A DNA stretch of 64,000 nt from Aromatoleum anaerobium (lineage in GTDB: Bacteria; Pseudomonadota; Gammaproteobacteria; Burkholderiales; Rhodocyclaceae). The position numbers were made by a program, and so were the translations under genes. Of this stretch, positions 4,624 through 52,110 are shown piece after piece. The notes beneath the pieces are model-generated. The model did no database searches, was not told the DNA's origin, and saw only the letters and a list, made by a program, of their open reading frames with translations. Position 1 is the first letter of the stretch, and each line of letters opens with the position of its first letter. The stretch covers positions 1,240,001 to 1,304,000 of the forward strand of contig NZ_WTVG02000040.1 of assembly GCF_012910705.2 (NCBI RefSeq). Direction: 5' to 3'.

Positions 4624-4644
4624 CGATGAAACTGCGGGCGGGAG

Positions 4645-5859: not shown

Positions 5860-6036
5860 GAACCCTCCTTGCCCCGATGTCCGGCATCCGCCCTCCGCCG
5901 TCACTGCGATCCGCTCACGAGCGGAGCGGAGGCGGCGGGAGGTCATGATATGCGCCCCCGCGGCCCACGGGAAAACCCGGGTCCGCCATCGAGGGGCAGC
6001 GCCCGCGGCGAAGGGGCTGCCCGCCGCAGATCCGCC

Positions 6037-7470
6037 TCAGCGCGACTCGAGAACCAGGCGGCCGTTGAGCGGCTGGATCGGCCGCCCGTTGCGCGGATAG
6101 AGACGCGCAAAGACGCGCACCTGCTCCGCCGATATCTTCACCGGCTCCTTCATGACCGCCCACACGACGCCTTCGGTACAGGGCGGCGTGACCAGCGATC
6201 CGACATACAGGTAGTGGGCGGGACTGACCGGCACGAGGCTGGCGAGGTCGATCGGCGACGCCGGCGCGTAGCTGCTGCCGCGCTCCAGCGGCAGGCTGTT
6301 CCACAGACTCTGGATCAGCGGATGTCCGCCGGAAGCGCCCTCGAGCAGCACCGCGACGACCGCTATCCGTCCGGCCGCATCGCGATGATGGAAATGCACC
6401 GCCATGTCGGAGGCCTGCCCGCCCACCCGCGCCAGCGACGGCCGGTGGAACTCGAGATGCTCGAGTTCATAGCGCTGGCCGCGGATCTCGACCCCCATGC
6501 CTTCGCCGACCCGCACCTCGAGCGTGCGCCCCGTGTCGGTGATGCGAAACTGCGTCTCCCGGTAATCGAAGCGCAGCGCCTCGAGATCGACGACGACCCC
6601 GCCGCCCAGCTCGATCGGCGACTGGCGCCTGCCTTCGGCACACAGCGACCAGTCCGGCCGCAGCCTGCCCCAGTGCTCCGGGCCCGTCGCACCTTCGTAG
6701 CTCCAGGCGGCATCGCTCACGAAGGGAACCCAGGGGGCCGGCGCGGACTTGGGGATCGGCGACCGGGAAGCCTGCGCCGCACGCAACTTGAGCTCGGGTT
6801 TCGGCCCGGGTTTCGGCTCGAGTTTCGGCTCGGGTTTCGGCTCGGGTTTCGGCTCGGGCTTCGGTTCTGGCTTCGCCTCCGGCCGCGGTGCAGTCGAAGC
6901 GGCGGCAGAAGGCGCCGTTCGGGGCGACGCCTTCGGTGGCGGCACCGGGGGCGCCTGGGTCGCAACCGCCGGGAGCCTGACCGGCGGGCCGATCGCGGAA
7001 TCATCGATGACTGCCGCTGCCGAGGCGACGGCGTCGTGTGCAGCTTTTTGCAGGTCGCTCGCCGACGCGGGCCGGCAGACCTCCTGCCACAAGCGCTCAT
7101 CGACGCTGTTGCGCGCCGCGGATATCGGCCGCTGGTCGAGCACAGCTTCTTCGCGCAGCACGAACTGGCGCGCATCGAGATAGACGCGCTTGACCGTATG
7201 GAACCTGCGGTTGTGGCAATCGAAGCGGTTCAGCGCCTTCACCACGGCATATCCTTCCAACGCGGCCCGTTCCGGCGACAGCACGATCCGTCCCCACGCG
7301 ACCTTGCTGCCGGCATCCGACGCCATGACGCTGGAGCGGTCGATCTCCACCTGGCGCTCGCGGTCCCTGATGACAACCTCCCAGGGCTCGGCGAGCGCCG
7401 CGGGGCTGACGAATGCCAGCGCGACGACCAGGCAGCAGTGCAGGAGGGGCGGCGAGGATTTCATCGTCAT
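6037..7470 (-). CDS. Periplasmic alpha-carbonic-anhydrase-like protein with N-terminal domain and PEPK linker
   Basis: 477 residues: a signal peptide (hydrophobic LLHCCLVVALAFVSPAALA), an N-terminal domain of about 150 residues resembling surface-adhesin-E-like domains, a Pro/Glu/Lys repeat linker, and an alpha-carbonic anhydrase domain from about residue 240. The domain keeps the Thr loop (VTPPCTEG), but where active enzymes have HFH it reads LEFH: E340 takes the first zinc-ligand position, while H342 and H359 are kept at the bacterial 17-residue spacing. The Glu that hydrogen-bonds the third ligand is also changed (AVHFHH). It may be a catalytically inactive CA-related protein or use a Glu ligand. 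The start at 7470 was chosen over 7464 and 7614 by signal-peptide fit. Confidence 0.8.
   Translation of the reverse strand: MTMKSSPPLLHCCLVVALAFVSPAALAEPWEVVIRDRERQVEIDRSSVMASDAGSKVAWGRIVLSPERAALEGYAVVKALNRFDCHNRRFHTVKRVYLDARQFVLREEAVLDQRPISAARNSVDERLWQEVCRPASASDLQKAAHDAVASAAAVIDDSAIGPPVRLPAVATQAPPVPPPKASPRTAPSAAASTAPRPEAKPEPKPEPKPEPKPEPKLEPKPGPKPELKLRAAQASRSPIPKSAPAPWVPFVSDAAWSYEGATGPEHWGRLRPDWSLCAEGRRQSPIELGGGVVVDLEALRFDYRETQFRITDTGRTLEVRVGEGMGVEIRGQRYELEHLEFHRPSLARVGGQASDMAVHFHHRDAAGRIAVVAVLLEGASGGHPLIQSLWNSLPLERGSSYAPASPIDLASLVPVSPAHYLYVGSLVTPPCTEGVVWAVMKEPVKISAEQVRVFARLYPRNGRPIQPLNGRLVLESR
6787..6882 (-). repeat. 12-bp tandem repeat encoding a PEPK linker
   Basis: Eight consecutive 12-base units encode variants of Pro-Glu-Pro-Lys (PEAK, PEPK x4, LEPK, PGPK, PELK) between the N-terminal and carbonic-anhydrase-like domains. 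Such PEPK linkers are typical of periplasm-spanning regions (compare TonB). Copy number may vary between strains by slippage. Confidence 0.85.
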
Positions 7471-7631
7471 GAAGGAGTTCCGGGAGATGTTACGGTCTTC
7501 GGCCGGGATCGGGATATCTTTAGCGACAACCGGCTGCGATTCGTGAAGGGGTGAAGGGGCCGGGCAGCCGGCGCCGATCCATTCCGGATTGCGCTTTGAA
7601 TGTCTGTCTTCCAATCAACGTATCACACCGG

Positions 7632-7637
7632 TAGAAT
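7632..7637 (+). promoter_or_regulatory. Candidate -10 box before the manganese riboswitch
   Basis: TAGAAT at 7632-7637 would start transcription near 7644, just before the riboswitch core at 7651. No good -35 box is visible. The hexamer TAGAAT also occurs ahead of mgtE (near 23141) and the HDOD-kinase gene (61949). Confidence 0.35.
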
Positions 7638-7647
7638 GCGCGCCGTC

Positions 7648-7800
7648 ATCAGGGAGTAGCCGCCCGCGCGGATTCGCGGGGACCACGTCAACAGACTTGC
7701 CCGTCGGGCATGGCGTGGCCAGCCTTCGGGCCTGGCGAGACTTTTGGCTGCATGCCCTCCGATTTTTCGGGCCGGGGAGGCGTGCAGTCATCGGTCATCA
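7648..7800 (+). ncRNA. yybP-ykoY (manganese) riboswitch
   Basis: The leader of the GDT1-type gene carries the conserved yybP-ykoY blocks in order: GGGAGTAGC at 7652-7660, CGTCAACAGACTT at 7686-7698 and GGCCTGGCGAGAC at 7729-7741. Downstream, bases near 7751-7759 (ATGCCCTCC) can pair with 7776-7783 (GGGAGGCGT), a candidate expression-platform hairpin close to the ribosome binding site. This RNA class binds Mn2+ and in proteobacteria switches on Mn exporters (mntP, GDT1/MneA types). Its position fits exactly. Boundaries are approximate. Confidence 0.85.
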
Positions 7801-7818
7801 GCCGGCCCGGAGAACCTG

Positions 7819-8397
7819 ATGAATCTTCCTGCCGAAGCCTTCCTGATGTCCTCGGGCATCGTCGCGCTCGCCGAAATCGGCGACAAGACCCAGCTGCTCG
7901 CCTTCATGCTCGCGGCCCGCTTCCGTCGCCCGTGGCCGATCGTCGCCGGCATCCTGATCGCGACCGTCGCGAACCATGCGTTCGCCGGCGCCGTCGGCAC
8001 GTGGGTCACGACACTGCTCGGCCCGGACCTGCTGCGCGGGGTGCTCGGCGCGTCCTTCCTCGCCATGGCGGCGTGGATTCTGGTTCCGGACAAGCTCGAC
8101 GACGAGGATCTCGCGACGCCGAAGTTCGGCGTGCTCGCGACGACGATCGTCGCGTTCTTCCTCGCCGAGATGGGCGACAAGACGCAGATCGCGACGGTCG
8201 CGCTCGCTGCGCAGTACGGCGCCTTCGCTGCGGTCGTCGCCGGCACGACGTTCGGCATGATGGTCGCGAACGTGCCGGCCGTCGTCGCCGGCGACCGCAT
8301 CGCGAACCGGTTGCCGATCCGCCTGATCCACGGCATCGCGGCGGCATTGTTCGCGCTGCTCGGCGTCGCCGCGCTGGCCGGCTTCGGCGGCGGGTGA
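7819..8397 (+). CDS. TMEM165/GDT1 family manganese exporter (MneA-like)
   Basis: 192 residues, all membrane, with two inverted halves each bearing the family motif: ALAEIGDKTQLLAFMLA near residue 17 and FLAEMGDKTQIATVALA near residue 116. Members of the UPF0016/GDT1 family move Mn2+ (and Ca2+) against protons; bacterial members expel Mn2+. The manganese riboswitch directly upstream supports this substrate. Start ATG 7819 has GGAGAA at 7809; the longer frame from 7744 would run through the riboswitch and is rejected. Confidence 0.87.
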   Translation: MNLPAEAFLMSSGIVALAEIGDKTQLLAFMLAARFRRPWPIVAGILIATVANHAFAGAVGTWVTTLLGPDLLRGVLGASFLAMAAWILVPDKLDDEDLATPKFGVLATTIVAFFLAEMGDKTQIATVALAAQYGAFAAVVAGTTFGMMVANVPAVVAGDRIANRLPIRLIHGIAAALFALLGVAALAGFGGG

Positions 8398-8631: not shown

Positions 8632-11446
<2,815 letters not shown>

Positions 11447-40479: not shown

Positions 40480-41709
40480 TCACGCGAGCCTGGGGGCGAG
40501 GCGCTCGAGCATCGCGCGGCGCTCCAGCTCGGCCGCCGCGCGCGTCGCGAAAATGCGGAACACGGCGTCGAGCAGCATCTCCGCCCCCATCTCCTTGCTG
40601 TCGAGGAAGGCGAGGTGGCCCAGCACCTTGCCCTCGCGCCCGATGATCGGGATGCCGATATAGCTCTCGAACGGCCCTTCGACCGGGAACTTCCGCGCGA
40701 GCCCGCACGGATGAAAGCAGGTGCGCGCCTCGTGGATCACCGCCTCGCACGGCGTGCCGGCGAGCTCGTATTCGAGGCTGTCGAGGAACGATGACGCGGA
40801 CCAGAACGCGAGCGTGCGCACCCGCGTCGGCGGCTGGTCGGTGCACTCGGTGATGAAGGCGCACGACACTTCCAGCGCCGCGGCGAAGTGGCGCACGAGG
40901 CAGCGGAAGAAGTCCTCGCCGTAGGTGCCCGCGGTGCCCTCGACGACCTGCTGCAGCACGTACTCGACGCGCTTGATCGCGGTGATGTCGGTGTCGAGCC
41001 CAATGATGCGGTAGGCGCGACCGTTGGCGTGGCGCACCGCGCTGCCGCGCGAGAGCATCCAGCGATAACGGCCGTCCTTGTGCAGCAGGCGCAGCTGGCG
41101 CTCGTAGCGGGGGGTGGCGCCTTCGAGATGGGCCGCGAGCGCGGCCTCGGCGCCGTCGCGATCGTCCGGATGCACGTGCTCGCGCCACGCCTCGATCGCG
41201 TTCGGGAACTCGTCATCGGCATAGCCAAGCAGGCTCTTCCAGCGCGGCGAGAGGATCAGCCGCGCGTTGTCCAGATCGCGCTCCCACAGGCCGTCGTGGG
41301 CGCCGCGCACCGCGATCGCGAGCCGCTCCTCGCTCAGCGCGAGGGCCCGCTCGGCGCGCTCGCACCGCTCGTCCGCGGCGCACAACTCGGCCCGCTGCGC
41401 GGCGGCCGTCTGCTGCAGGCCGTGGATCGCACGCTCGATGCGCCGGAACGCCGCGTCGGCGGCTGCGACCGGCGCCGCCGCGGGCTGCGCTGCGGCTTCC
41501 CCCAGGCGCGCGAGTGCGGCGAGGGGGCGGCGCACGGTGAACTCGACCGTCACCGCGATCACCGCCAGCATCGGCACGAGCCCCGCCAGCAGCGCGGCCC
41601 CGTGCGAGGCTTGCGACACCAGCGCCGGCGCGCCGCCCCACGCGAACGCGCCGGCCAGCACGAGGGCATACACCGCCGCGGGCAGAACGATCTTCGCTGT
41701 CAGGTTCAT
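40480..41709 (-). CDS. Membrane PAS-GAF sensor protein without output domain
   Basis: 409 residues. Two N-terminal membrane helices (IVLPAAVYALVLAGAFAWG; LLAGLVPMLAVIAVTVEF), a coiled-coil linker, a PAS domain with PAC motif (WKSLLGYADDEFP, WREHVHPDDR, GRYRWMLSRGSAVR, GLDTDITAIKR), then a GAF-like domain (FESYIGIPIIGREGKVLGHLAF). It ends after GAF: no kinase, GGDEF or EAL. The start at 41709 is fixed by GGAGG 7 bases upstream; ATG 41715 is too close. It is divergent from bufB and shares the intergenic repeats. It may signal by protein contact. Confidence 0.82.
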   Translation of the reverse strand: MNLTAKIVLPAAVYALVLAGAFAWGGAPALVSQASHGAALLAGLVPMLAVIAVTVEFTVRRPLAALARLGEAAAQPAAAPVAAADAAFRRIERAIHGLQQTAAAQRAELCAADERCERAERALALSEERLAIAVRGAHDGLWERDLDNARLILSPRWKSLLGYADDEFPNAIEAWREHVHPDDRDGAEAALAAHLEGATPRYERQLRLLHKDGRYRWMLSRGSAVRHANGRAYRIIGLDTDITAIKRVEYVLQQVVEGTAGTYGEDFFRCLVRHFAAALEVSCAFITECTDQPPTRVRTLAFWSASSFLDSLEYELAGTPCEAVIHEARTCFHPCGLARKFPVEGPFESYIGIPIIGREGKVLGHLAFLDSKEMGAEMLLDAVFRIFATRAAAELERRAMLERLAPRLA

Positions 41710-41750
41710 GGCCATGCCTCCGTGCGCCGTCGCGCGCGAACTGAAGAAAC

Positions 41751-41778
41751 CTTGACTCCCTCGTGACGCTTCCGTGAC
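41751..41778 (+). promoter_or_regulatory. Three 11-bp-spaced hexamers upstream of bufB
   Basis: CTTGAC (41751), CGTGAC (41762) and CGTGAC (41773) lie exactly 11 bases apart and end 66 bases before the bufB start. OmpR/PhoB-family regulators bind such direct repeats on one DNA face. The same hexamer with the same period lies before bufA1 (45333-45371). The OmpR-type regulator encoded between the two sites is the natural candidate. The site may also affect the divergent PAS-GAF gene. Confidence 0.65.
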
Positions 41779-41843
41779 GACTGCGCGCGACACTGGCCGC
41801 ATCGCCGCGCTCCCGCCGCGCGCCACCACCAGGACCCGACGCC

Positions 41844-42704
41844 ATGCCCCTGCCATCCGACCCCGCGACGAGACCCCGACGCATTCCGCGCCGCGCCGGC
41901 ATCGGCCTGCGCGCCCCGCACTATCGCCGCCTGCTCGACGAGCTGCCCGATGTCGGCTGGCTCGAAGTCCATAGCGAAAATTACTTCGGCGACGGCGGCC
42001 AGCCGCTGCACTACCTCGAACGCGCCCGCGCGCACTATCCGCTGAGCCTGCACGGCGTGGGGCTGTCGCTCGGCTCGGCGCAGCCCCTCGACCGCGGCCA
42101 CCTCGCGCGGCTCGCGGCGCTGCTGCGGCGCTTCGAGCCGGATCTCGTGTCCGAGCACCTGAGCTGGGGCGCGGTGCCGGGCCGCCACCTCAACGACCTG
42201 CTGCCGCTGCCCTACACCGAGGAGGCGCTGGCGGTCACGGCGGCGCACGTCGCCGAAGTGCAGGATGCGCTCGGCCGCCCCATCCTCGTCGAGAACATCT
42301 CGAGCTACCTGCGCTTTCGCCATTCGACGATCGGCGAGGCGGAGTTCATCGCGGCGCTGGCGGCGCAGACCGGCTGCGGAATCCTGCTCGACGTGAACAA
42401 CATCCACGTGAGCGCCGCGAATCACGGCTTCGACGCCGCGGCCTACGTCGAGGCGATCCCGGTCGCGGCGGTGCGCGAGATCCATCTGGCCGGTTTCGAC
42501 CGCATCGGCGAGCTGCTCGTCGACACCCACGGCACGCGCGTCGCGCCACCCGTGTGGGCACTCTACCGGCTCGCGCTGACGCGCTTCGGCGCGGTGCCGA
42601 CGCTCATCGAGTGGGACACCGACCTGCCCGAGCTCGACGTGCTGCTCGCCGAGGCCGCGACCGCGGAACGCTTCATGGAGGCCCATCGTGCCCTCGCTGC
42701 CTGA
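41844..42704 (+). CDS. bufB: MNIO-type (DUF692) bufferin maturase BufB
   Basis: 286 residues, a TIM-barrel multinuclear non-haem iron oxidase. Metal-site segments: [13 protein letters not shown] (H26), [10 protein letters not shown] (E41, H43, E45), [52 protein letters not shown] and [11 protein letters not shown]. Such enzymes modify cysteines of BufA precursors to thiooxazole-type copper-binding groups. The partner BufC overlaps it by 17 bases, and DUF2282 precursors occur at 45450 and 50396. The precursor is not in the same transcription unit, which is unusual. Confidence 0.9.
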
Positions 42705-43461
42705 GTTGCAGGAAACCTTCGCCGCCGCACTGCTCGCCCCCGCGCCCGACGGCGCGCTGCCCTTCGTCGTGGCCGACCGCATCGCGCCGGCCGAGCGCCT
42801 CGCGGTCTATCGCCACAACGTGCGGCACAACTTCCGCGAAGCGCTGCGCGCGGTCTACGCGGTGGTCGACCGGCTCGTCGGCGCCCGCTTCTTCGATTAC
42901 GCGGCCGACCGCTATACCCGCGAGCACCCTTCGACGAGCGGCGACATCCACGCCTTCGGCGCGCGCTTTGCAGACTTCCTCGCCGCTTTCGCACCGGCCG
43001 CGGGCCTGCCCTACCTGCCCGACGTGGCGCGCCTCGAGTGGGCGATGCACGAGGTCTTCCACGCCGCCGCGCCGCCCCCCTTCCCGCTTGAGCGGCTCGC
43101 CGCGCTGCCGGCCGCGGCGCACGCCGCGCTGTGCTTCACGCCGAGCCCGGCGTGCCGGCTGCTCGCCTCGCGCTGGCCCGTGCACCGCCTGTGGGCGCTC
43201 AACCAGCCCGGCGTGGCGTGGGACGAGACCTTCGACCTCGGCGCCGGCGGCGTCACGCTGCTGGTGCGCCGCAGCGGCTTCGAGGTCGAACTCGAGCCGC
43301 TGCCCGGCGCCGAATTCGCGCTGCTCGATCGCCTCGCCGGCGGACAGGCCCTCGCCGCCGCGCTCGAGGCCGTGGGCACGAGCGCGCCGGACTTCGATCT
43401 GGCCGCCTTCCTGCAGCGTCATCTGCTCACCGCCACGCTGTGCGACTTCAGCCCGGGCTGA
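42688..43461 (+). CDS. bufC: DUF2063 bufferin partner protein BufC
   Basis: 257 residues. The N-terminal DUF2063 region is recognised from [10 protein letters not shown], the [19 protein letters not shown] helix, [20 protein letters not shown] and the [19 protein letters not shown] segment, followed by a beta-rich half. BufC proteins recruit the precursor leader for the MNIO enzyme. The start is GTG 42688 with GGAGG at 42677-42681, inside the bufB end (17-base overlap), so the two are co-translated. Its 3' end overlaps the 3' end of the opposing histidine kinase gene by 14 bases. Confidence 0.87.
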
Positions 43462-44545
43462 CGGCGGGCGCGGCCGGCAGTTCGACGACGAAGCGCGTCC
43501 CCTGCCCCGGCGTGCTCTCCGCGCGGATCGTGCCCGCGTGCAGCTCGACGATGCGGCGCGTGATCGCCAGCCCGAGCCCGGCATGGGCGGCGTTGCCGGG
43601 CTCGCCGCGGTCGACCCGGTAGTAGCGGTCGAACACGTTCGCCAGCTCGTTGGTGGCGATGCCCTTGCCGGTATCGCTGACGCCCAGCCTCACCGCCGCG
43701 CCGCCGTCCGCCTGCAGCGTGACGCGGATCGTGCCTTCCGCCGGCGTGTAGCGCATCGCGTTCTCGATGAGGTTCTCGAGCACGCGCTCGATCATGCCGA
43801 TATCGGCGAGCACCATCGGCACCTCGGGCGCGATCTCGGTGACGAGGTGCTGGCCGGCCTTTCTCGCCTGCAGCTCGAACTTCTGCGCCACGTCCTGCAC
43901 CAGTTCGGCGAGCGGAAAGCGCTCCGGCTGCGGACGGATCTCGTGCGCCTCGAGCCGTGTCAGCTCGAACAGGTCGCGCACCAGCTTGCCCAGCCGCTCG
44001 CAGTGGCGGGTCGCCACCTGCAGGTAGCTGCGCCGCTCCTCCGGCGTGAGACTGCCGTCCTTCAGCAGCAGGGTCTCGAGATAGCCCTGCATCGACGCGA
44101 GCGGCGTGCGCAGGTCGTGCGAAACGTTGGCGAGCAGCTCGCGGCGGCGCGCATCGACCTGCGCGAGCGCCTCGAGCTGGCACACGATGCGCTCCGACAT
44201 CTCGGCGAACACCGCTGCCAGCATGTCGATCTCGTCGCCGCCGCCGTTGCCGGCGAGCTGCAACGGCGCGGAGAAGCCGCCGTCGCGGAAGACCTCGATC
44301 GACTCGCACAACGTGCGCAGCCGGCGCGTCAGGAAGCGGAACACGATCAGCGCCGCCAGCAGGCTGAACGCGACCGCGCCGACGATCAGGTAGGTGGCGA
44401 GCTCGAGCAGCAGGTTCGGCTCGAGCACCGTCTGCAGGCGCTCCGGCTCGAACATCGTCTGCGAGGCGACGATCATCAGCCCGCCGACGGCGACGAAAAC
44501 GCCCATCAGCACCGCCGCGAGCCGGCCGTAGAGGGAGCGGAACAT
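43448..44545 (-). CDS. Sensor histidine kinase of the bufferin locus
   Basis: 365 residues. Two membrane helices (about 7-27 and 45-67) enclose a very short periplasmic loop with FEPERLQTVLEPN; then HAMP, HisKA with ANVSHDLRTPLASMQGYLE, and HATPase with LENLIENAMRYTP, SDTGKGI and AGLGLAITRRIV. The periplasmic loop is too small for a classical sensor domain, so sensing may be within the membrane or via a partner. It follows the regulator gene by 2 bases. A metal or redox signal is inferred from the locus, not seen. Confidence 0.9.
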   Translation of the reverse strand: MFRSLYGRLAAVLMGVFVAVGGLMIVASQTMFEPERLQTVLEPNLLLELATYLIVGAVAFSLLAALIVFRFLTRRLRTLCESIEVFRDGGFSAPLQLAGNGGGDEIDMLAAVFAEMSERIVCQLEALAQVDARRRELLANVSHDLRTPLASMQGYLETLLLKDGSLTPEERRSYLQVATRHCERLGKLVRDLFELTRLEAHEIRPQPERFPLAELVQDVAQKFELQARKAGQHLVTEIAPEVPMVLADIGMIERVLENLIENAMRYTPAEGTIRVTLQADGGAAVRLGVSDTGKGIATNELANVFDRYYRVDRGEPGNAAHAGLGLAITRRIVELHAGTIRAESTPGQGTRFVVELPAAPAVSPG

Positions 44546-44547
44546 CC

Positions 44548-45255
44548 TCAGCTCCGCGCCACGTCGCGAAACTTGTACCCCACGCCCCACACCGTCTGGA
44601 TGTATTCGGGCTGGTTCGGGTTGGTCTCGATCTTCGCGCGCAGGCGGTTGATGTGCGAGTTCACCGTGTGCTCGTAGCCGCTGTGGCTGTAGCCCCACAC
44701 CTGGTCGAGGAGCTGCGCGCGCGTGAAGACCCGGCCGGGGTGGCGCGCGAAGTGGAGCAGGAGCTCGAATTCGGTCGCGGTGAGTTCCACCGGCCGGCCG
44801 TCGAGCCGCACTTCGCGCCGCTCGACGTCGATCACGAGCGCGCCGCTCTCGATCACCTGGCCGGTCGCGGCCGACTGGTTCGCGAGGCTCTCGACGCGGC
44901 GGAAGATCGCCTTCACCCGCGCGACGAGCTCGAGCACGCTGAAGGGCTTGGTGACGTAGTCGTCGGCGCCCATCTCGAGCCCCAGCACGCGGTCGAGCTC
45001 CCCGGACTTGGCGGTGAGCATCAGGATCGGCGTGTAGGCGGGGCGCGCGCGGATGCGCCGGCAGATCTCCAGCCCGTCGATGCCCGGCAGCATCAGGTCG
45101 AGGATCACCAGGTCGTAGGGCTTCGCCTCCAGTTCGGCGAACCCGCGCAGCCCGTCCGCGGCGAGCTTGACCGTGCACCCGATGTCGGCGAGCTGCAGCT
45201 TGATCAGCCGGCCGATGTCGGGGTCGTCCTCGATGACCAGTACCTGTCGCGCCAT
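44548..45255 (-). CDS. OmpR-family response regulator of the bufferin locus
   Basis: 235 residues. Receiver with VLVIEDDPDIGRLIKLQL, acceptor D53 in LVILDLMLPGIDG, LTAKSG and DDYVTKPFS; C-terminal winged helix with TATEFELLLHFARHPGRVF, RAQLLDQVWGY and VNSHINRLRAKIE. It is transcribed away from bufA1, with the intergenic region holding 11-bp-spaced repeats. It most likely controls bufBC and the bufA1 operon, and possibly itself. Described bufferin/gig operons are commonly linked to ECF sigma factors, so a two-component system is notable. Confidence 0.92.
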   Translation of the reverse strand: MARQVLVIEDDPDIGRLIKLQLADIGCTVKLAADGLRGFAELEAKPYDLVILDLMLPGIDGLEICRRIRARPAYTPILMLTAKSGELDRVLGLEMGADDYVTKPFSVLELVARVKAIFRRVESLANQSAATGQVIESGALVIDVERREVRLDGRPVELTATEFELLLHFARHPGRVFTRAQLLDQVWGYSHSGYEHTVNSHINRLRAKIETNPNQPEYIQTVWGVGYKFRDVARS

Positions 45256-45332
45256 ACCGTCGCCTCCGGTCGGGTGCTTGAAGCATAGGCAAGCGCGACG
45301 CCCTTCGCCGGCTCGTTTTGCGGTCGGCCGGG

Positions 45333-45371
45333 CGTGACGAAAACGTGAGGATCAGGCGACCGGCGCGTGAA
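45333..45371 (+). promoter_or_regulatory. Four 11-bp-spaced hexamers upstream of bufA1
   Basis: CGTGAC (45333), CGTGAG (45344), GGCGAC (45355, two mismatches) and CGTGAA (45366) are spaced by exactly 11 bases and end 79 bases before the bufA1 start. The motif, period, orientation and distance to the start codon match the array before bufB (41751-41778). It is a candidate operator of the neighbouring OmpR-type regulator and lies between the divergent regulator and bufA1 genes. Confidence 0.65.
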
Positions 45372-45449
45372 TTCTGCCGCCGATCATGCACACCACGGAC
45401 AGGCGCAAAGCCGGTCCGCTTCCCCAATCACCGACATGGAGTGCGAATC

Positions 45450-45749
45450 ATGAAAAGCGAACTGATCATCCGTGGTGCGATGGCGAGCCTGCTTGCGCTG
45501 AGCGTCGTGGCCGCCAGCGGCCAGGCGCTGGCCGCCAAGGGCGACATGGAGAAATGCGCCGGCGTGGCGAAGGCGGGCAAGAACGACTGCGGCACCTCGA
45601 AGAGCTCGTGCGCAGGCACGGCGAAGGCCGACAACGACCCCGAGGCCTGGGTGCTCGTACCCAAGGGCACCTGCGAAAAGATCGCCGGCGGCACGGTCAC
45701 GGACAAGCCCTACAACGCGCCCGGCGGCATGGCCGCGCTGAAAAAGTAA
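45450..45749 (+). CDS. bufA1: Bufferin precursor BufA1 (DUF2282)
   Basis: 99 residues. Signal peptide to about residue 29 (ASLLALSVVAASGQALAA), then the DUF2282 core with four cysteines C36, C47, C54 and C75 in CAGVAKAGKNDCGTS, KSSCAGTAKAD and VPKGTCEKIAGG. DUF2282 proteins are RiPP precursors whose cysteines are modified by BufB/BufC and then chelate copper in the periplasm. ATG 45450 follows GGAG at 45438; the frame from 45318 runs through the regulatory region. It is the first gene of the DoxX-containing unit. Confidence 0.92.
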   Translation: MKSELIIRGAMASLLALSVVAASGQALAAKGDMEKCAGVAKAGKNDCGTSKSSCAGTAKADNDPEAWVLVPKGTCEKIAGGTVTDKPYNAPGGMAALKK

Positions 45750-45830
45750 GCCGCGGCTTCGCCCTGCACCGGCCGCGCGAGCGGCCGGACTGCCCTCCCC
45801 CTTTCTGCGTTCCCTTCCAAGGAGACCGAC

Positions 45831-46322
45831 ATGGATTTCGCAGCCAGCCGCCCCCCGGCCGCCGCCCGCGCGCCCCGGGGCATCATGGCCGGCCTCGGCC
45901 GCGCCGCCGACGCTGCCCGCAGCGCGCTCGTGTTCTTCACCCCGGCGCTCGATTTCGGCATTCGCCTGCTGTTGGCGAGCGTCTTCTTCAAGGCCGGCCT
46001 GACCAAGATCGCGAGCTGGAGCACGACGCTCGCGCTGTTCGAGTACGAGTACGCGGTACCGCTGCTGCCGCCGGAGGCGGCCGCCTGGCTCGGCACCGCG
46101 GCCGAACTCACGCTGCCGGTGCTGCTGGTGCTCGGACTCGGCACGCGGCTCGCGGCGTTCGCGCTGTTCGTCTTCAACATCGTCGCGGTGATTTCCTACC
46201 CGGACCTCGGCGAGGTCGGCTTGAAGGATCACCAGTACTGGGGCCTGCTGCTGCTCGTCACGCTGTTCCACGGTCCGGGCAAGCTGTCGCTCGATCACCT
46301 GATCCACCGGCGTTTCGGCTGA
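45831..46322 (+). CDS. DoxX-family membrane protein
   Basis: 163 residues with four helices: the first (LDFGIRLLLASVFFKAGLTKI) holds the DoxX signature, followed by WLGTAAELTLPVLLVLGLGT, the AFALFVFNIVAVISYPDL segment, and YWGLLLLVTLFHGPGKLSLD. DoxX genes accompany bufA/gig operons, where they are thought to act in membrane redox or transport, with no proven role. AAGGAGA precedes ATG 45831. It probably follows bufA1 in one transcript (81-base gap). Confidence 0.88.
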   Translation: MDFAASRPPAAARAPRGIMAGLGRAADAARSALVFFTPALDFGIRLLLASVFFKAGLTKIASWSTTLALFEYEYAVPLLPPEAAAWLGTAAELTLPVLLVLGLGTRLAAFALFVFNIVAVISYPDLGEVGLKDHQYWGLLLLVTLFHGPGKLSLDHLIHRRFG

Positions 46323-46341
46323 GCCGCGCGAGGAGACGACC

Positions 46342-47697
46342 ATGCATACCGATCGCGCCGCAGTCCTTGCGCCGCCCGCCACCAACCGCGGGTCCGGCGA
46401 CCGCACCATCGTCATCATCGGCGGCGGCTTCGCCGGCACGACGCTCGCCCGCTCGCTCGAACGGCTGCTGCCGGCGAACTGGCACGTGCTGCTGGTAAGC
46501 CAGGAGAGCTACACGACCTTCAACCCGATGCTCGCCGAAGTCGTCGGCGCCTCGGTGTTCCCCGAGCAGGTGGTGGCGCCGATCCGCCAGATGCTGCGCC
46601 GCACCCGCTTTGTCATGGGTACCGTGACCGGCGTCGATCTCGAGCGCCGCACGGTGCTCGCCGACACGCTCGCCGGCCCGCGCGACCTGCCCTATGCGCA
46701 CCTCGTGTTCGCCTTCGGCACGCGCGCCAATCTCGCGCTCGTGCCGGGCATGGCCGAGCACGCGCTGCCGCTGAAGCTCGTCGGCGACGCAATGTTCATC
46801 CGCAACCGCGTGCTGCAGCGCGTCGCACGCATCGAGCTCGAGTCCGACCCCGCGGTGCGCCGGCGGCTGGGGCACTTCGTCGTCGTCGGCGGCGGCTTCT
46901 CCGGCGTCGAGGTGGCTGGCGAACTCGCCGATTTCCTGCGCAGCGCGCGGCGCTACTACCCGCGCGTGCGGGCCGACGAGCTGCAGGTCACGATCCTGCA
47001 GGACGGCCCACGGCTGCTGCCGGAGCTGCCCGAGAAGCTCGGGCACGGTGCCGCACGCTCGATGCGCCGACGCGGCATCGACGTGCGCCTCGGGGCGCGC
47101 GCCGCGCGGGTCGCGGCCGACGGCGTGACGCTCGCCGACGGCACCGCGATTGCCGCCGCCACCGTGATCTGCACCATCGGCACGCATCCGCACCGGCTCG
47201 TCGAGCGGCTCGCGCTGCCGCTCGCGCGCGGGCGCATCGAAACCGCCCCCGACATGTCGGTGCCCGGCGTGCCCGGCGTGTGGGCGATCGGCGACTGCGC
47301 GCTGGTGAAGAACGCCGCGGCGGACGACGCCTTCTCGCCGCCGACCGCGCAGTTCGCGGTGGCCCAGGCGCGGCAGCTTGCGCACAACCTCGCGCAGCGC
47401 ATCCATGGCCGTCCGACGCGCGCCTTCGGCCACGTCTCGAAAGGGATGATGGCCACGGTCGGCCACATGAACGGCGTCGCCCAGGTGTTCGGCGTGCGCC
47501 TCTCGGGGGTGCCGGCGTGGCTGCTGTGGCGCGCCTTCTACCTCCTGCGCATGCCCACCTTCGGCCGCAAGCTGCATATCTGGATGGAATGGACGTGGGG
47601 GATGTTCTTCCGCGCCGACATCACCCACCTGCGCTTCAACCGCAGCAACGAGACGGAAGACGAGCCCGCGCCCGTCGAATCCGCCGCCCTGCACTGA
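46342..47697 (+). CDS. NDH-2-like NAD(P)H/FAD oxidoreductase
   Basis: 451 residues. FAD dinucleotide fold TIVIIGGGFAGTTLARSLERL near the start, second NADH fold FVVVGGGFSGVEVAGELADFL near residue 180, then VPGVPGVWAIGDCALV (FAD phosphate loop) and a C-terminal amphipathic part (WRAFYLLRMPTFGRKLHIW) that anchors type II NADH dehydrogenases to the membrane. It would pass electrons from NADH to quinone or another acceptor. It follows doxX by 19 bases with GAGGAGA ahead. A joint redox job with DoxX is inference. Confidence 0.88.
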   Translation: MHTDRAAVLAPPATNRGSGDRTIVIIGGGFAGTTLARSLERLLPANWHVLLVSQESYTTFNPMLAEVVGASVFPEQVVAPIRQMLRRTRFVMGTVTGVDLERRTVLADTLAGPRDLPYAHLVFAFGTRANLALVPGMAEHALPLKLVGDAMFIRNRVLQRVARIELESDPAVRRRLGHFVVVGGGFSGVEVAGELADFLRSARRYYPRVRADELQVTILQDGPRLLPELPEKLGHGAARSMRRRGIDVRLGARAARVAADGVTLADGTAIAAATVICTIGTHPHRLVERLALPLARGRIETAPDMSVPGVPGVWAIGDCALVKNAAADDAFSPPTAQFAVAQARQLAHNLAQRIHGRPTRAFGHVSKGMMATVGHMNGVAQVFGVRLSGVPAWLLWRAFYLLRMPTFGRKLHIWMEWTWGMFFRADITHLRFNRSNETEDEPAPVESAALH

Positions 47698-47721
47698 CCC
47701 ACCCCCAGCAAGGAGAACGAC

Positions 47722-48504
47722 ATGCTCAAAGGAAAATCCGCGATCGTCACCGGTTCCACCAGCGGGATCGGACTCGGCATCGCGAGCGCGCTCGCCCGCG
47801 CGGGCGCCGACGTGATGCTCAACGGCTTCGGCGACGCCGACACGATCGAGACGCTGCGCTACCGGCTCGAGCAGGAGCACGGCGTGCGCGTGCGCTATTC
47901 GCGCGCCGACATGAGCCGCCCCGAAGCCATCGCCGCGATGGCCGAGACCGCCCGCGCCGAGTTCGGCCACGTTGACATTGTCGTGAACAACGCCGGCATC
48001 CAGCACGTCGCACCGGTCGACGAGTTCCCCGCGGAGAAGTGGGACGCGATCCTCGCGATCAACCTGTCGTCGGCCTTCCACCTCGTCAAGGCGGTGCTGC
48101 CGCAGATGAAGGCCCGCCGCTGGGGCCGCATCATCAACGTCGCCTCGGCACACGGGCTCACCGCCTCGCCGTTCAAGTCCGCCTACGTCGCCGCCAAGCA
48201 CGGCATGGTCGGGCTCACGCGCGCGGTCGCGCTCGAGGTCGCGCAGCACGGCATCACCTGCAACACGGTGTGTCCCGGCTACGTCATGACGCCGCTCGTC
48301 GAGCAGCAGATCGCCGACCAGGCAAAAGCCCACGGCATCTCGCCCGAACGGGTCGTGAGCGAGGTGATGCTGGTGCATCAGGCGCGCAAGGCGTTCGTGC
48401 AGGTCGACGAGCTCGCCGCACTCACCGTGTTCCTGTGCTCGGACGCTGCCGCGTCGATGACCGGGACCGCGCTGCCGATGGACGGCGGCTGGACCCTGCA
48501 CTGA
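47722..48504 (+). CDS. 3-hydroxybutyrate dehydrogenase (SDR)
   Basis: 260 residues, the standard length. TGSTSGIGLGIASALARAGA (NAD loop), NNAGIQHVAPVDEFP, catalytic Ser in NVASAHGLTASPFKSAY, YVAAKHGMVGLT with Tyr/Lys, and the CPGYVMTPLVEQQI block fit BdhA-type enzymes. It converts 3-hydroxybutyrate, a product of PHB breakdown, to acetoacetate. AAGGAGA precedes ATG 47722. It forms a ketone-body group with the patatin and acetoacetate decarboxylase-like genes. Confidence 0.92.
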   Translation: MLKGKSAIVTGSTSGIGLGIASALARAGADVMLNGFGDADTIETLRYRLEQEHGVRVRYSRADMSRPEAIAAMAETARAEFGHVDIVVNNAGIQHVAPVDEFPAEKWDAILAINLSSAFHLVKAVLPQMKARRWGRIINVASAHGLTASPFKSAYVAAKHGMVGLTRAVALEVAQHGITCNTVCPGYVMTPLVEQQIADQAKAHGISPERVVSEVMLVHQARKAFVQVDELAALTVFLCSDAAASMTGTALPMDGGWTLH

Positions 48505-48516
48505 AGGGAGCGTGCC

Positions 48517-49587
48517 GTGAATTTACGAGACATGACCAGCGAGCGGCCAGCCGCCGCTCACAAGAGCCCGCTGCGCGTCAAGCCGGTGACGCTCGCCCTG
48601 CAGGGCGGGGGTGCGCACGGCGCCTTCGCGTGGGGCGTGCTCGACCGGCTCCTCGAGGACGGGCGGCTCGCCTTCGAGGGGGTCAGCGCGACCAGTGCCG
48701 GCGCGATGAACGCCGCGGTGCTCGCCTGCGGCCTGATGCGCGGCGGGCGCGACGGTGCGCGCGCCGCGCTCGCCGAGTTCTGGCGCGACATCGCCGACAC
48801 CGCCGCACTGTGCAGCCCCTTCCGCCAATGGCCGTGGGCGGGCGGTGCCAACGGCCACACGCTCGACAACTCGCCGTTCTACCTGATGACGGACATGCTG
48901 CTGCGGGTCTTCTCGCCCTATCAGTTCAACCCGTTCAACTTCAATCCGCTGCGCGAGGTGCTTGCCCGCCACGTCGACTTCGCCGCGCTGCGCGAGCACG
49001 GGACGCTGCGGCTCTTCCTCTGCGCGACCAATGTCGAGACCGGCAAGGTGCGCATCTTCCCGCGCGAGGAGGTGTGCATCGACGCGGTGCTCGCCTCGGC
49101 CTGCCTGCCCTTCCTGTTCCAGGCGGTCGAGATCGACGGCGAGCCCTACTGGGACGGCGGCTACGTCGGCAACCCGGCGATCTACCCGCTGATCTACGAG
49201 TGCGACACGCGCGACGTCGTGATCGTGCACATCAACCCGATCGTGCGCCGCGGCGTGCCGCACACTGCCGCCGAGATCCTCAACCGCATCAACGAGGTGA
49301 GCTTCAACTCGTCGCTGATGCGCGAGATGCGCGCGATCGCCTTCGTCACCTCGCTGATCGAGCGCGGCAAGGTCGCGCCGGGCGAGATGAAGCAGATGCT
49401 GATCCACTCGATCCGCTCGGACGAGACCATGACCGGGCTCGGCGTCTCGAGCAAGCTCAACGCCGACTGGGGCTTTCTCACCGAGCTGCGCGAGCGCGGG
49501 CGCGAAGAGGCCGAGGCCTGGCTCGCCGCGTCCTTCGACGCGGTGGGCGAGCGCTCCACCGTCGACCTCCGCACCGAATTCCTGTGA
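48517..49587 (+). CDS. Patatin-like phospholipase / acyl hydrolase
   Basis: 356 residues. Oxyanion loop LQGGGAHGAFAWGVLDRLL near residue 30, nucleophile elbow ATSAGAMNAA (Ser; the first Gly of GxSxG is Ala here), and the Asp of the dyad in YWDGGYVGNPAIYPL. It should cleave acyl esters; the substrate is unknown and may be lipid or, from the context, a hydroxyalkanoate. The start is GTG 48517 with AAGGGAG at 48504-48510; ATG 48532 is an alternative. It follows bdh by 12 bases. Confidence 0.87.
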   Translation: MNLRDMTSERPAAAHKSPLRVKPVTLALQGGGAHGAFAWGVLDRLLEDGRLAFEGVSATSAGAMNAAVLACGLMRGGRDGARAALAEFWRDIADTAALCSPFRQWPWAGGANGHTLDNSPFYLMTDMLLRVFSPYQFNPFNFNPLREVLARHVDFAALREHGTLRLFLCATNVETGKVRIFPREEVCIDAVLASACLPFLFQAVEIDGEPYWDGGYVGNPAIYPLIYECDTRDVVIVHINPIVRRGVPHTAAEILNRINEVSFNSSLMREMRAIAFVTSLIERGKVAPGEMKQMLIHSIRSDETMTGLGVSSKLNADWGFLTELRERGREEAEAWLAASFDAVGERSTVDLRTEFL

Positions 49588-49616
49588 CCCCCACCCCCGA
49601 CCCGAGGACCACTGCC

Positions 49617-50447
49617 ATGCAGATCGAAGACATTCTCCAGACCGCGTCGATGCCGCTCGCCAGCCCCAGCTACCCGAAGGGCCCCTACCGCTTCATCGAC
49701 CGCGAGTACATGATCATCACCTACGAATCGGACCCCGCGGCGATCCGCACCGCGGTGCCCGAGCCGCTCGCGCCCGACGGCTCGAACCAGGTGCTCTACG
49801 AGTTCATCCGCATGCCCGACTCGACCGGCTTCGGCGACTACACCGAGTCGGGCATCGTGATCCCGTGCCGCTTTCAGGGCGAGGCGATCAATTTCGTCGC
49901 CCAGATGTACCTCGACTGCGAGCCGCCGATCTCGGGCGGGCGCGAGATCTGGGGCTTCCCGAAGAAGCTCGCGGACGTGTCGCTGAAGGTCGTGCGCGAC
50001 ACGCTCGCCGGCCGCCTCGAGTACGCGGGCCAGCCGGTGGCGCTCGCGAGCATGGCCTACAAGCACGACAACCTCATCTGCGCCGGCAACGGCAGCCTGG
50101 TGTGCGACACCGCGCCGCTGGTGAAGAAGCTCACCAAGACCCAGGTCAACCTCAAGCTGATCCCGGACGTCGATGGGTCGCTGGCGATCGCCCAGCTCGT
50201 CGCCTACAACCTCGCCGACGTGCACGTGAAGGGCGCGTGGGAGAGCCCCGCGCGGCTGCACCTGATCCCGCACGTCAATGCGCCGGTCGCGGACCTGCCG
50301 GTGCGCCGCGTGGTGGGCGGCAGCCACTTCGTCGCCGACCTCACGCTGCCTTACGGGCGCGTGCTGTTCGACTATCTCGCCGACAAGGAGCGCACATGGC
50401 ACACCGACTCGCCAACGCTGCGGTCATTGGCGCCGCAATCGGCCTGA
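49617..50447 (+). CDS. Acetoacetate decarboxylase family protein
   Basis: 276 residues. The catalytic Lys region GREIWGFPKKLADV near residue 112 is clear, with PEPLAPDGSNQVLYEFIRMP before and LIPHVNAPVADLPVRRVV later. The enzyme class decarboxylates acetoacetate to acetone through a Schiff base. Next to 3-hydroxybutyrate dehydrogenase this is consistent with a route from 3-hydroxybutyrate to acetone, but the real substrate is unproven. ATG 49617 follows GAGGA. Its last 52 bases overlap the second bufA-like gene in another frame. Confidence 0.88.
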   Translation: MQIEDILQTASMPLASPSYPKGPYRFIDREYMIITYESDPAAIRTAVPEPLAPDGSNQVLYEFIRMPDSTGFGDYTESGIVIPCRFQGEAINFVAQMYLDCEPPISGGREIWGFPKKLADVSLKVVRDTLAGRLEYAGQPVALASMAYKHDNLICAGNGSLVCDTAPLVKKLTKTQVNLKLIPDVDGSLAIAQLVAYNLADVHVKGAWESPARLHLIPHVNAPVADLPVRRVVGGSHFVADLTLPYGRVLFDYLADKERTWHTDSPTLRSLAPQSA

Positions 50448-50683
50448 GCGTGCTCGCGGTGCAGCAGTTCACCCACGCGCTGCCCGGCTCGCCGAAGACC
50501 TTCACGTCGGAGCGCGAGCGCTGCTACGGGGTGGTGCGGGCCGGGCGCAACGACTGCGGCACCTCGAAGCACGCCTGCGCCGGACAGGCGCGGCGCGACC
50601 GCGACGCCGAGGAATGGCTGATGCTGCCCGCCGGCACCTGCGAACGCCTCGCCGGCGGACGGCTCAAGGCCGGCGCAGCATGA
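50396..50683 (+). CDS. Second BufA-like (DUF2282-type) precursor
   Basis: 95 residues. An N-terminal hydrophobic segment (AAVIGAAIGLSVLAV) looks like a signal sequence or anchor. The core repeats bufA1 with four cysteines C43, C54, C61 and C82 at the same spacing (11, 7, 21): ERCYGVVRAGRNDCGTS, KHACAGQARRD and LPAGTCERLAGGRL. ATG 50396 has AAGGAG 6 bases upstream and lies inside the end of the decarboxylase-like gene (52-base overlap). There is no adjacent bufB/C, so the pair at 41844-43461 could serve both. Lacking a clear AxA site, it may stay membrane-tethered. Confidence 0.83.
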   Translation: MAHRLANAAVIGAAIGLSVLAVQQFTHALPGSPKTFTSERERCYGVVRAGRNDCGTSKHACAGQARRDRDAEEWLMLPAGTCERLAGGRLKAGAA

Positions 50684-50694
50684 AGGAGAGCGTC

Positions 50695-52110
50695 ATGGAA
50701 AGCGCGAGCCTCGACCCGGCCCCGACGGCGGACGCCGCCTTCGCGCGGCTCGTCGCCACGCTGGCGAGACGCCTCGCCGCGCTGCGGCCGGCCTCGTCGG
50801 CCGCGCTGCCGGCCCGCGTGCGGGACGCGATCGCGCGCGAGCAGTACCGCAGCGAGCTGCTCGTCACCGCGGTCCAGCTCGCCATCGCCGCGCTGCTCGC
50901 GCTCCTTTATGCCGGCACGCCGCGCGGCTTCGCGCCCGACGCGCCGGTCGAGGCGGCGCCGCTGGGGCTGTCGCTGTTCGCGATCCTGTCGCTCGTGCGC
51001 CTGTACTTCGCGCTCACCGGCCAGCTCGGGCGCGGGCTCCTCGGCTTCACCGTGGTCGCCGAGATGGCGGTGCTGATGTCCGTGATCTTCGCCTACCACC
51101 TGCAGTACGAGCAGCCGCCGCAACTGTCGCTGAAGAGCACCGAGTTCGCCTACGTCTTCATGCTGATCGCGCTGCGCGCGCTGCGCTTCGAGGCGGTGTG
51201 GGTGGTGCTCTCGGGGCTCACCGCGGCGGCGAGCTGGGTCGCGCTGGTGGCCTGGTCGGTGGCGAGCGCGACGGCGAATCCCGTGACCTGGGACTACGTC
51301 ACGTCGCTGCGCTCGTTCCAGATCCACTACGGCGGCGAGTTCGACAAGCTGCTGGCGATCCTGGTGGTCACCGCGATGCTCGCCTTCTCGCTCGCTCGCG
51401 CGCGGCAGCTGCTGGCCGACGCGGTCGCGCGCGAGCAGGCGGTCGCGGACCTGTCGCTGTTCTTCGACGACTCGGTCGCCGCCCGCATCACCGGCTCCGA
51501 AGCCGAGGTCATGGCCGGCCAGGGCGAGCTGCGCGAGGCTGCGATCCTGTTCCTCGACCTGCGCGGCTTCACCGCGGCCGCCGCGCGCCTGTCACCCGAC
51601 GCGCTGATCGCGCTGCTCGGCGACTACCAAGGCCTGGTGCTGCCGATCATCAAGGCGCACGGCGGCAGCATCGACAAATTCATGGGCGACGGCATCCTCG
51701 CGAGCTTCGGCGCGGTGCGCCCCGATCCGCAGTTCGCCGCGAACGCGCTGCGCGCCACCGATGCGATCCGGCTCGCCGTCGACCGCTGGCGCGCCGCCCG
51801 CGAGGCCGCCGGCCTCCCCGCCCCCGACGTCGGCGCGGGGCTTGCGACCGGCGCGGTCGTGTTCGGCATCATCGGCCACGCGCGCCGCCTCGAATACACC
51901 GTGATCGGCGATGCGGTCAATCTCGCGGCCAAGCTCGAAAAGCACAACAAGGTCGAGCGCACGCGCGGGCTGGCCACGCGCACCGCATACGAGCTCGCGC
52001 GCGAGCAGGGCTACCGCGACGTCCGCGAGATCCTCGCCCGACGCCGCGTCGGCGGCGTCGCGGCGCCGCTCGACCTCGTCGCGCTCGGCGGCGAGCGGGG
52101 CACCTGTTAA
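50695..52110 (+). CDS. Membrane-bound class III nucleotide cyclase
   Basis: 471 residues. About five or six N-terminal membrane helices (residues 60-240) precede a short linker and a class III cyclase domain: metal Asp in LFLDLRGFTAAAARL, base/metal motif DKFMGDGILASFG with Lys typical of ATP use, and YTVIGDAVNLAAKLEK, where the transition-state Arg is replaced by Lys. It probably makes cAMP. ATG 50695 is chosen for AAGGAG upstream; ATG 50680 overlapping the previous stop has none. It is the last gene of the unit; the link to bufferin is only positional. Confidence 0.83.
   Translation: MESASLDPAPTADAAFARLVATLARRLAALRPASSAALPARVRDAIAREQYRSELLVTAVQLAIAALLALLYAGTPRGFAPDAPVEAAPLGLSLFAILSLVRLYFALTGQLGRGLLGFTVVAEMAVLMSVIFAYHLQYEQPPQLSLKSTEFAYVFMLIALRALRFEAVWVVLSGLTAAASWVALVAWSVASATANPVTWDYVTSLRSFQIHYGGEFDKLLAILVVTAMLAFSLARARQLLADAVAREQAVADLSLFFDDSVAARITGSEAEVMAGQGELREAAILFLDLRGFTAAAARLSPDALIALLGDYQGLVLPIIKAHGGSIDKFMGDGILASFGAVRPDPQFAANALRATDAIRLAVDRWRAAREAAGLPAPDVGAGLATGAVVFGIIGHARRLEYTVIGDAVNLAAKLEKHNKVERTRGLATRTAYELAREQGYRDVREILARRRVGGVAAPLDLVALGGERGTC

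Follow-up and report, generated by a model that had tools for sequence, protein, structure and literature searches.

A Buf1-type bufferin locus of Aromatoleum anaerobium with two transcription units probably co-activated by an adjacent two-component pair

A stretch of 64,000 nucleotides from Aromatoleum anaerobium (GCF_012910705.2, NZ_WTVG02000040.1, positions 1,240,001-1,304,000 of the forward strand; the window, whose numbering is used for all positions) carries a bufferin system of the Buf1 type, i.e. a putative thiooxazole metallophore system, in two transcription units that are probably co-activated by the two-component pair encoded next to them. Both units are preceded by direct repeats of CGTGA in 11-bp phase, and these boxes recur with the same geometry at related loci in other genera. 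The comparison supports well the notion of two units under one regulator. A known kind of system, the Buf1 bufferin, is thus present in a regulatory and genomic form that we did not find described; the literature searched, mostly at the level of titles and abstracts, held no account of a two-component bufferin regulon. The source genome (labelled G000) comprises 4.56 Mb in 40 contigs with a completeness of 100. Domains were called by profile searches against Pfam and NCBIfam/TIGR models with their curated cut-offs.

Gene order and regulator boxes of the window

The first unit consists of bufB (41844-42704, plus strand) and bufC (42688-43461, plus strand, GTG start), which overlap by 17 nt. BufB is a maturase of the MNIO (DUF692) family: it reached 382.4 bits with NF050167 (MNIO_BufB; cut-off 310) and 362.6 bits with PF05114, and it keeps the 44 positions that are near-invariant among 72 BufB sequences. 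BufC is the DUF2063 partner protein (PF09836, 83.1 bits; cut-off 27.2), scoring 59.5 bits with NF050145 (HvfC), below the cut-off of 142. Convergent with bufC, and overlapping its 3' end by 14 nt, is the gene of a sensor histidine kinase (43448-44545, minus strand) with HisKA and HATPase_c above cut-off and a HAMP domain at 24.0, just below 25. Next in the order of positions comes the gene of an OmpR/PhoB-type response regulator (44548-45255, minus strand; Response_reg, PF00072, and Trans_reg_C, PF00486, both above cut-off). The regulator is 84% and 73% identical to its orthologues in loci L062 and L068, and its gene is divergent from bufA_a, the first gene of the second unit. bufA_a (45450-45749, plus strand; PF10048, 87.4 bits) encodes a Buf1 precursor and adjoins doxX (45831-46322, plus strand; PF07681, 63.3 bits, cut-off 23.6); ndh, hbd, pat, adc, a second precursor gene (bufA_b) and a cyclase gene complete the unit, all on the plus strand. 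Divergent from bufB lies a gene for a PAS membrane protein (40480-41856, minus strand; PF08447, 84.8 bits), given here as its longest open reading frame; its start is uncertain, because this frame overlaps the start of bufB and the bufB box.

The first-pass annotation had described a bufB-bufC unit and a bufA-doxX unit with an OmpR-type regulator and a kinase on the opposite strand between them. This is borne out: the genes lie where it placed them or close by, and their domains were confirmed. The distance from the MNIO gene to the first DUF2282 match is 2869 bp, with the two-component genes in between, so the usual side-by-side order of precursor and maturase does not hold. The genome contains one MNIO and two DUF2282 matches, all of them in the window. 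Since this BufB is the only MNIO of the genome, any MNIO modification of either precursor must be its work.

Comparison of the intergenic regions with those of L062 (genome G025), L068 (G034) and L063 (G040) revealed a direct repeat, CGTGA-N6-CGTGA, before both units. The bufB box (41762-41777, plus strand), with a weaker half-site CTTGA at 41751, is followed by a -10-like hexamer, GACACT (41789-41794, plus strand), that begins 11 nt past the last half-site. The bufA_a box (45333-45370, plus strand) extends to four half-sites, CGTGA, CGTGA, GGCGA and CGTGA, in exact 11-bp steps, and its -10-like hexamer, GATCAT (45382-45387, plus strand), again begins 11 nt past the last of them. In the form [CG]GTGA-N6-[CT]GTGA the repeat has only two matches in the window on both strands, one 82 bp before bufB and one 117 bp before bufA_a. 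A sigma-70 promoter scan gave no match, and a terminator scan gave nothing above shuffled sequence.

Conservation of the boxes in one kinase subfamily

Starting from three aligned kinases, 80 loci of named genomes were collected, and their gene content was determined by tblastn with the window proteins as queries. On the basis of kinase identity (52-72%), 25 loci (L090-L111, L114, L119 and L125; L090 is from G025 and L119 from G040) were assigned to the subfamily of the window's kinase. The other 55 loci (39-48%) gave no match for bufB, bufC, bufA or doxX; L112-L169, except L114, L119 and L125, are such more distant kinases with no bufferin genes nearby. Within the subfamily bufB was found in 22 loci, bufC, bufA_a and doxX in 21 each and the PAS protein in 24 (at 35-36% identity in L105 and L111). 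The carriers include Azotobacter chroococcum, Caballeronia, Paraburkholderia, Cupriavidus, Azohydromonas, Variovorax and Candidatus Accumulibacter. The gene layout of the window is more than a chance arrangement, since it is found again beside kinases of this subfamily in further genera.

Boxes were sought in the 260 bp upstream of each gene, window included, with a score of at least 9/10 on either strand for the two-site form and at least 16/20 for the four-site form. The two-site box preceded 22 of 23 bufB genes and the four-site box 21 of 22 bufA_a genes; in random 270-mers from the same loci (n=4000) the rates were 5.1% and 3.5%, respectively. No two-site box was seen upstream of bufC (0/22), doxX (0/22), the kinase gene (0/29), adc (0/9) or the cyclase gene (0/13), and single ones occurred at hbd (1/17), pat (1/18) and bufA_b (1/13). 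Seven of 20 ndh matches had the box; these are cases where ndh has left the bufA operon (Paraburkholderia/Burkholderia) and is preceded by a box of its own. In many loci the PAS gene (two-site box in 12/25) and bufB have a common upstream region, and so do the regulator gene (two-site 3/25, four-site 12/25) and bufA. Accumulibacter-type loci have bufBCA in one uninterrupted run, and even there bufA is preceded by its own box. It follows that loci of this type have two promoters as a rule, the intervening regulator genes being one arrangement among others.

The -10-like hexamer, which played no part in the choice of boxes, was examined in 45 promoters (16 bufB, 22 bufA_a, 6 ndh and 1 czcE), 38 of them distinct. 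A hexamer xAxAxT starts exactly 11 nt past the last half-site in 36 of the 38, and at each of 30 other offsets in none or one. With the hexamer at this fixed distance the box occupies the place of the -35 element, as is expected of an activator of the PhoB kind. The regulator has the receiver and winged-helix domains of the OmpR/PhoB type, and the tandem repeats, its putative target, are conserved together with their spacing to the -10 hexamer. The likeness to regulators of this type acting at direct repeats, such as PhoB, lies in the domain layout and in tandem half-sites of 11-bp phase ahead of the -10 element; the present pair is set apart by its presumed half-site, CGTGA, and by the near lack of a periplasmic domain in the kinase.

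Three further stretches, from plasmids of Cupriavidus oxalaticus X32 (two) and Paraburkholderia caribensis, have boxes at 2/2 bufB genes, 3/3 bufA_a genes (16, 16 and 15 of 20) and one ndh gene. The two from X32 (L190 and L191) are copies of the locus on one megaplasmid; in the second copy the kinase was matched only in part, and the 20-kb stretch gave no bufB or bufC match.

The box also precedes other genes. In L062 it stands, in a four-site form of its own, before a gene for a CzcE-type protein (8760-9089; PF16986, 78.6 bits in L062/L090) between bufC and the kinase gene. CzcE-type proteins are presumably copper binders; if so, an envelope metal response would fit. A periplasmic cupin gene follows the box in Azohydromonas (L106-L109) and Variovorax (L114 and L125), with Pfam checked for L106, and a gene for a small Met-rich exported protein does so in L192. 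In L103 (1160; TIGR02943 above cut-off) and L105 (7936; 66% identical to that of L103) the box precedes a gene for an extracytoplasmic function (ECF) sigma factor, which suggests that in some betaproteobacterial metagenome-assembled genomes a two-component system feeds an ECF factor.

Several observations weigh against control of both units through this box by the adjacent pair, or against copper as its signal. Across the genome, 8 matches to the strict two-site form stand against 6 for the backward pattern, so that the short form alone is uninformative; the six other matches, among those listed, had no convincing promoter context and added no further regulon members. The four-site pattern CGTGA-N8-TGA-N7-GCGA-N6-CGTGA had one match in 300 genomes of the order, at bufA_a of the window (backward pattern, 0), but G025, G034 and G040 were not part of that draw, so that the single match speaks for specificity and not for conservation. 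Six loci, from Azohydromonas and Variovorax, have the bufB box in inverted orientation; together with L103 they lie outside the 16 bufB promoters of the hexamer comparison. One of the two deviating hexamers is that of bufA_a in the window, one base off xAxAxT; the other is that of bufA_a in L125, where the script had anchored on an earlier half-site. L105, L111 and L119 carry the kinase without bufB in the stretch examined. The loci are moreover related (8 of the 25 are from Paraburkholderia/Burkholderia, two of them from one genome), so the counts are not independent. Lastly, the heavy-metal models of the CopRS/CusRS type were not reached by the regulator (TIGR01387, 170.9 bits against a required 279.2) or the kinase (TIGR01386, 170.2 against 292.55), nor did any of the best 25 models listed for each protein reach its curated cut-off. 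Copper is therefore a putative signal.

In the mechanism that we infer, the kinase, with almost no periplasmic domain, would phosphorylate the OmpR-type regulator, which would then bind the CGTGA repeats, all lying on the same DNA face, in the -35 place and 11 nt upstream of the -10 hexamer. Binding would switch on bufBC, the cytosolic maturase and its partner, and likewise the bufA_a-doxX operon, with the exported precursor, the flavoprotein and ketone-body genes and bufA_b, so that the metabolic genes would belong to the same response. In at least one of the precursors, and perhaps in both, BufB and BufC would turn the two central Cys into thiooxazoles ahead of export, and the exported peptides would bind excess copper in the envelope; copper and the cysteine modification are what the family leads one to expect. 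The first-pass annotation had likewise proposed a rewired regulon, with machinery and substrate expressed apart under one sensor. That idea is supported in part, by the two units, their common 11-bp-phased CGTGA box, the OmpR-type regulator encoded beside them and the recurrence of this linkage across genera; the annotation had missed the second precursor, which lies in the span annotated, and the downstream metabolic genes.

Metabolic genes, second precursor and sensor

Downstream of doxX, on the plus strand, follow ndh (46342-47697), for an NDH-2-like pyridine nucleotide-disulphide oxidoreductase (PF07992, 161.3 bits; NDH2_C 22.4, below the cut-off of 27.7); hbd (47722-48504), for a 3-hydroxybutyrate dehydrogenase (TIGR01963, 375 bits; cut-off 307); pat (48517-49587, GTG start), for a patatin-like phospholipase (PF01734, 96.5 bits); and adc (49617-50447), for an acetoacetate decarboxylase (PF06314, 245.1 bits; NF002614, 335.2, cut-off 150; best solved relative 3bgt). 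bufA_b (50396-50683) starts within adc and overlaps the start of a gene for a class III adenylate/guanylate cyclase (50680-52110; PF00211, 37.9 bits, cut-off 21.9), orthologues of which follow bufA_b elsewhere. In a search of 121 genomes (our own and 120 relatives) acetoacetate decarboxylase was found in 8 at E 1e-60 and exceeded 500 bits only in G000 and G040; the operon around adc was seen in G040 as well.

The strongest of the alternatives, although we think it somewhat unlikely, is that the functional system consists of bufBC, bufA_a and doxX only, and that ndh, hbd, pat, adc and the cyclase gene are an older fused metabolic operon outside the metal response. The G025 locus (L062/L090) and the Accumulibacter-type loci indeed have regulator, bufBC, bufA and doxX without close matches to the metabolic genes, and adc (at least 63% identity) occurs in just 6 of the 25 subfamily loci. 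A closer tie is indicated by ndh (at least 65% identity), hbd (at least 70%) and bufA_b, present in 16, 14 and 12 of these loci, and by the box in front of the detached ndh genes.

Both precursors carry DUF2282 and four Cys (bufA_b: PF10048, 81.5 bits); with the BufA2 family NF050166 they scored 24.8 and 25.1 bits, below the cut-off of 60. They differ at their N-termini. BufA_a has a Sec signal peptide with an AxA signal-peptidase site, present in 21 of its 22 orthologues, and it also bears a C-terminal tail. BufA_b of the window has an N-terminal hydrophobic segment and no AxA; any AxA was found, by a crude rule, in 6 of 13 orthologues and mostly within the hydrophobic segment. The Azohydromonas copies show an N-terminal extension ahead of that segment, with start codons as picked by a script. 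These features suggest that BufA_b is a membrane-anchored bufferin, possibly with an uncleaved anchor. In L101 (Burkholderia sp. Ac-20365, 4425-8157) the metabolic portion of the operon looks degraded, with adc and pat matches in pieces, and bufA_b, which lacks the third Cys, continues into cyclase-like sequence. This degraded copy and the poorly conserved signal-peptidase site would also agree with a BufA_b that is no working bufferin, being either unmodified or a membrane sensor or decoy. We regard that as unlikely, because 11 of 13 copies retain the NDCGT motif along with the full set of four Cys, the exceptions being L101 itself and L106, which is cut off at the end of the stretch.

As judged by eye, the kinase has two apparent transmembrane helices with a very short loop between them. 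Two such helices joined by a short loop with a conserved Met-x-Glu occur in the window and in 21 of 23 subfamily kinases compared (the starts of L114 and L125 were unreadable, and L105 and L111 were not included); that it senses copper is a guess. The PAS protein is a third sensor candidate; Pfam gave it neither a kinase domain nor any other output domain, and it may exert its effect through the kinase. Other two-component pairs stand beside a DUF2282 or MNIO gene in L070 (10161-12663) and L077 (8715-12334), with regulator identities of 47% and 55%, and are possibly independent recruitments. It is improbable that the box, though real and co-regulating both units, is bound mainly by another OmpR-type regulator, with the adjacent pair a co-travelling neighbour. 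In favour of this, OmpR-type regulators have similar half-sites, and the 20 kb around the bufA operon and its box in G040 gave no close match to the pair. On the other side, G040 carries a kinase orthologue on another contig, most members of the subfamily have the pair together with bufferin genes, the pair remains next to the box when the gene order changes, and a loose GTGA-N7-GTGA upstream of 16 of 53 related regulators at non-bufferin loci (random, 2.3%; strict CGTGA form, 1 of 53) hints that the repeat belongs to the regulator family.

Co-activation by the adjacent pair allows a further proposal, which we make very tentatively. The kinase, with only the short Met/Glu loop exposed, might sense copper or redox state at the membrane face and turn on two bufferins of one maturase, one exported and one membrane-tethered, along with a 3-hydroxybutyrate/acetoacetate and NADH-oxidising module. 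The genome has three class I polyhydroxyalkanoate synthases above cut-off, which fits a link to polyhydroxybutyrate (PHB) but is no test of it, and Azotobacter, Azohydromonas, Cupriavidus and Accumulibacter store PHB. A literature search for this combination of metabolic genes with DoxX found no matching paper. If the proposal were true, bacteria that store PHB would couple the buffering of metal to carbon-storage metabolism in a single response, a dedicated envelope-stress circuit not yet described.

Relation to other bufferin loci and origin

It had also been assumed in the first-pass annotation that bufferin loci are contiguous and ECF-linked. A neighbourhood survey of the 121 genomes bears this out in part; it left aside eleven MNIO matches that were weak or partial (at most 211.5 bits) and two DUF2282 matches that missed the cut-off. 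An MNIO gene lay within 1 kb of 43 of 59 DUF2282 genes and at 1-6 kb of 5; none lay within 6 kb of 11, some of which come from short contigs or sit close to the end of a contig (G060, G078). Among 49 MNIO genes with a nearby DUF2282, a TIGR02943-like ECF sigma gene (matches above cut-off and the next three) occurred within 10 kb of 19. Judged by this single sigma family, an ECF link is frequent in the sample without being the rule. The window has no TIGR02943-type sigma by tblastn (E 1e-4, one such sigma as query), and the best TIGR02943 match of the genome, 99 bits against a cut-off of 162.2, is on another contig. In G000, G025, G034 and G040, the four genomes where the kinase match was strong, no such sigma stands beside MNIO, a number too small for a test.

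Among 16 congeners the kinase was found in none at E 1e-80, DUF2282 with MNIO in 5 and a TIGR02943 sigma above cut-off in 14. In a quick tree of BufB without bootstrap, the window grouped with G025 and the gammaproteobacterium Azotobacter (SH-aLRT 99), and 14 BufBs from loci with the two-component system stood together (97); the two-component label required 3 changes versus 19.6 when shuffled, a contrast inflated by near-copies. Vertical inheritance of the locus was rejected, as no congener has the kinase at that threshold and the BufBs of those four of the five DUF2282/MNIO carriers that are in the tree fall in other clades. The absence of kinase matches in congeners and the grouping of BufB with G025 and Azotobacter point to horizontal movement of the whole locus.

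Of the described systems, the Buf1 (DUF2282) clusters of the Caulobacter vibrioides type come closest, with a four-Cys precursor carrying a signal peptide, the MNIO protein BufB, the DUF2063 protein BufC and DoxX (PMC12452194). The present locus differs in having two promoters around a two-component pair rather than ECF sigma/NrsF, two precursors and extra metabolic genes. The bufferin core genes, their ECF/NrsF links and both unlinked and tandem precursors have been described, and the words "two-component" and "histidine kinase" do not occur in the main text of that paper (PMC12452194). The same core gene families make up the gig operon of Cupriavidus metallidurans and its Legionella relative, for which a response to copper and gold has been reported (PMC5413113, PMC13192273). 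gig lies near the ECF sigma gene rpoQ, although RpoQ is not essential for its expression (PMC13192273). In the parts of these papers that we consulted no adjacent two-component pair is named for gig (PMC5413113, PMC13192273), the two-component passage of PMC5413113 concerning LetA/S. The captophorins fontiphorin, oxazolin and gonophorin share the MNIO and DUF2063 partner proteins and the 5-thiooxazole product class, and differ by a repeat-type precursor in fontiphorin and oxazolin; an absorbance at ~305 nm is reported for thiooxazoles (PMC13097082). Their loci frequently contain "transcriptional regulators", unnamed in section 7 of that paper (PMC13097082).

Bufferins are widespread copper-binding, ribosomally synthesised and post-translationally modified peptides whose control, in the literature consulted, is linked to ECF sigma factors or left open. 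A conserved, probable two-component regulon with an explicit operator, with one maturase gene for both precursors and with linked redox and ketone-body genes makes three questions directly testable: which signal induces bufferins, whether one MNIO protein serves several precursors encoded apart from it, and which physiology the system serves. A search with the box is also a way to find precursors that do not adjoin the gene of their maturase.

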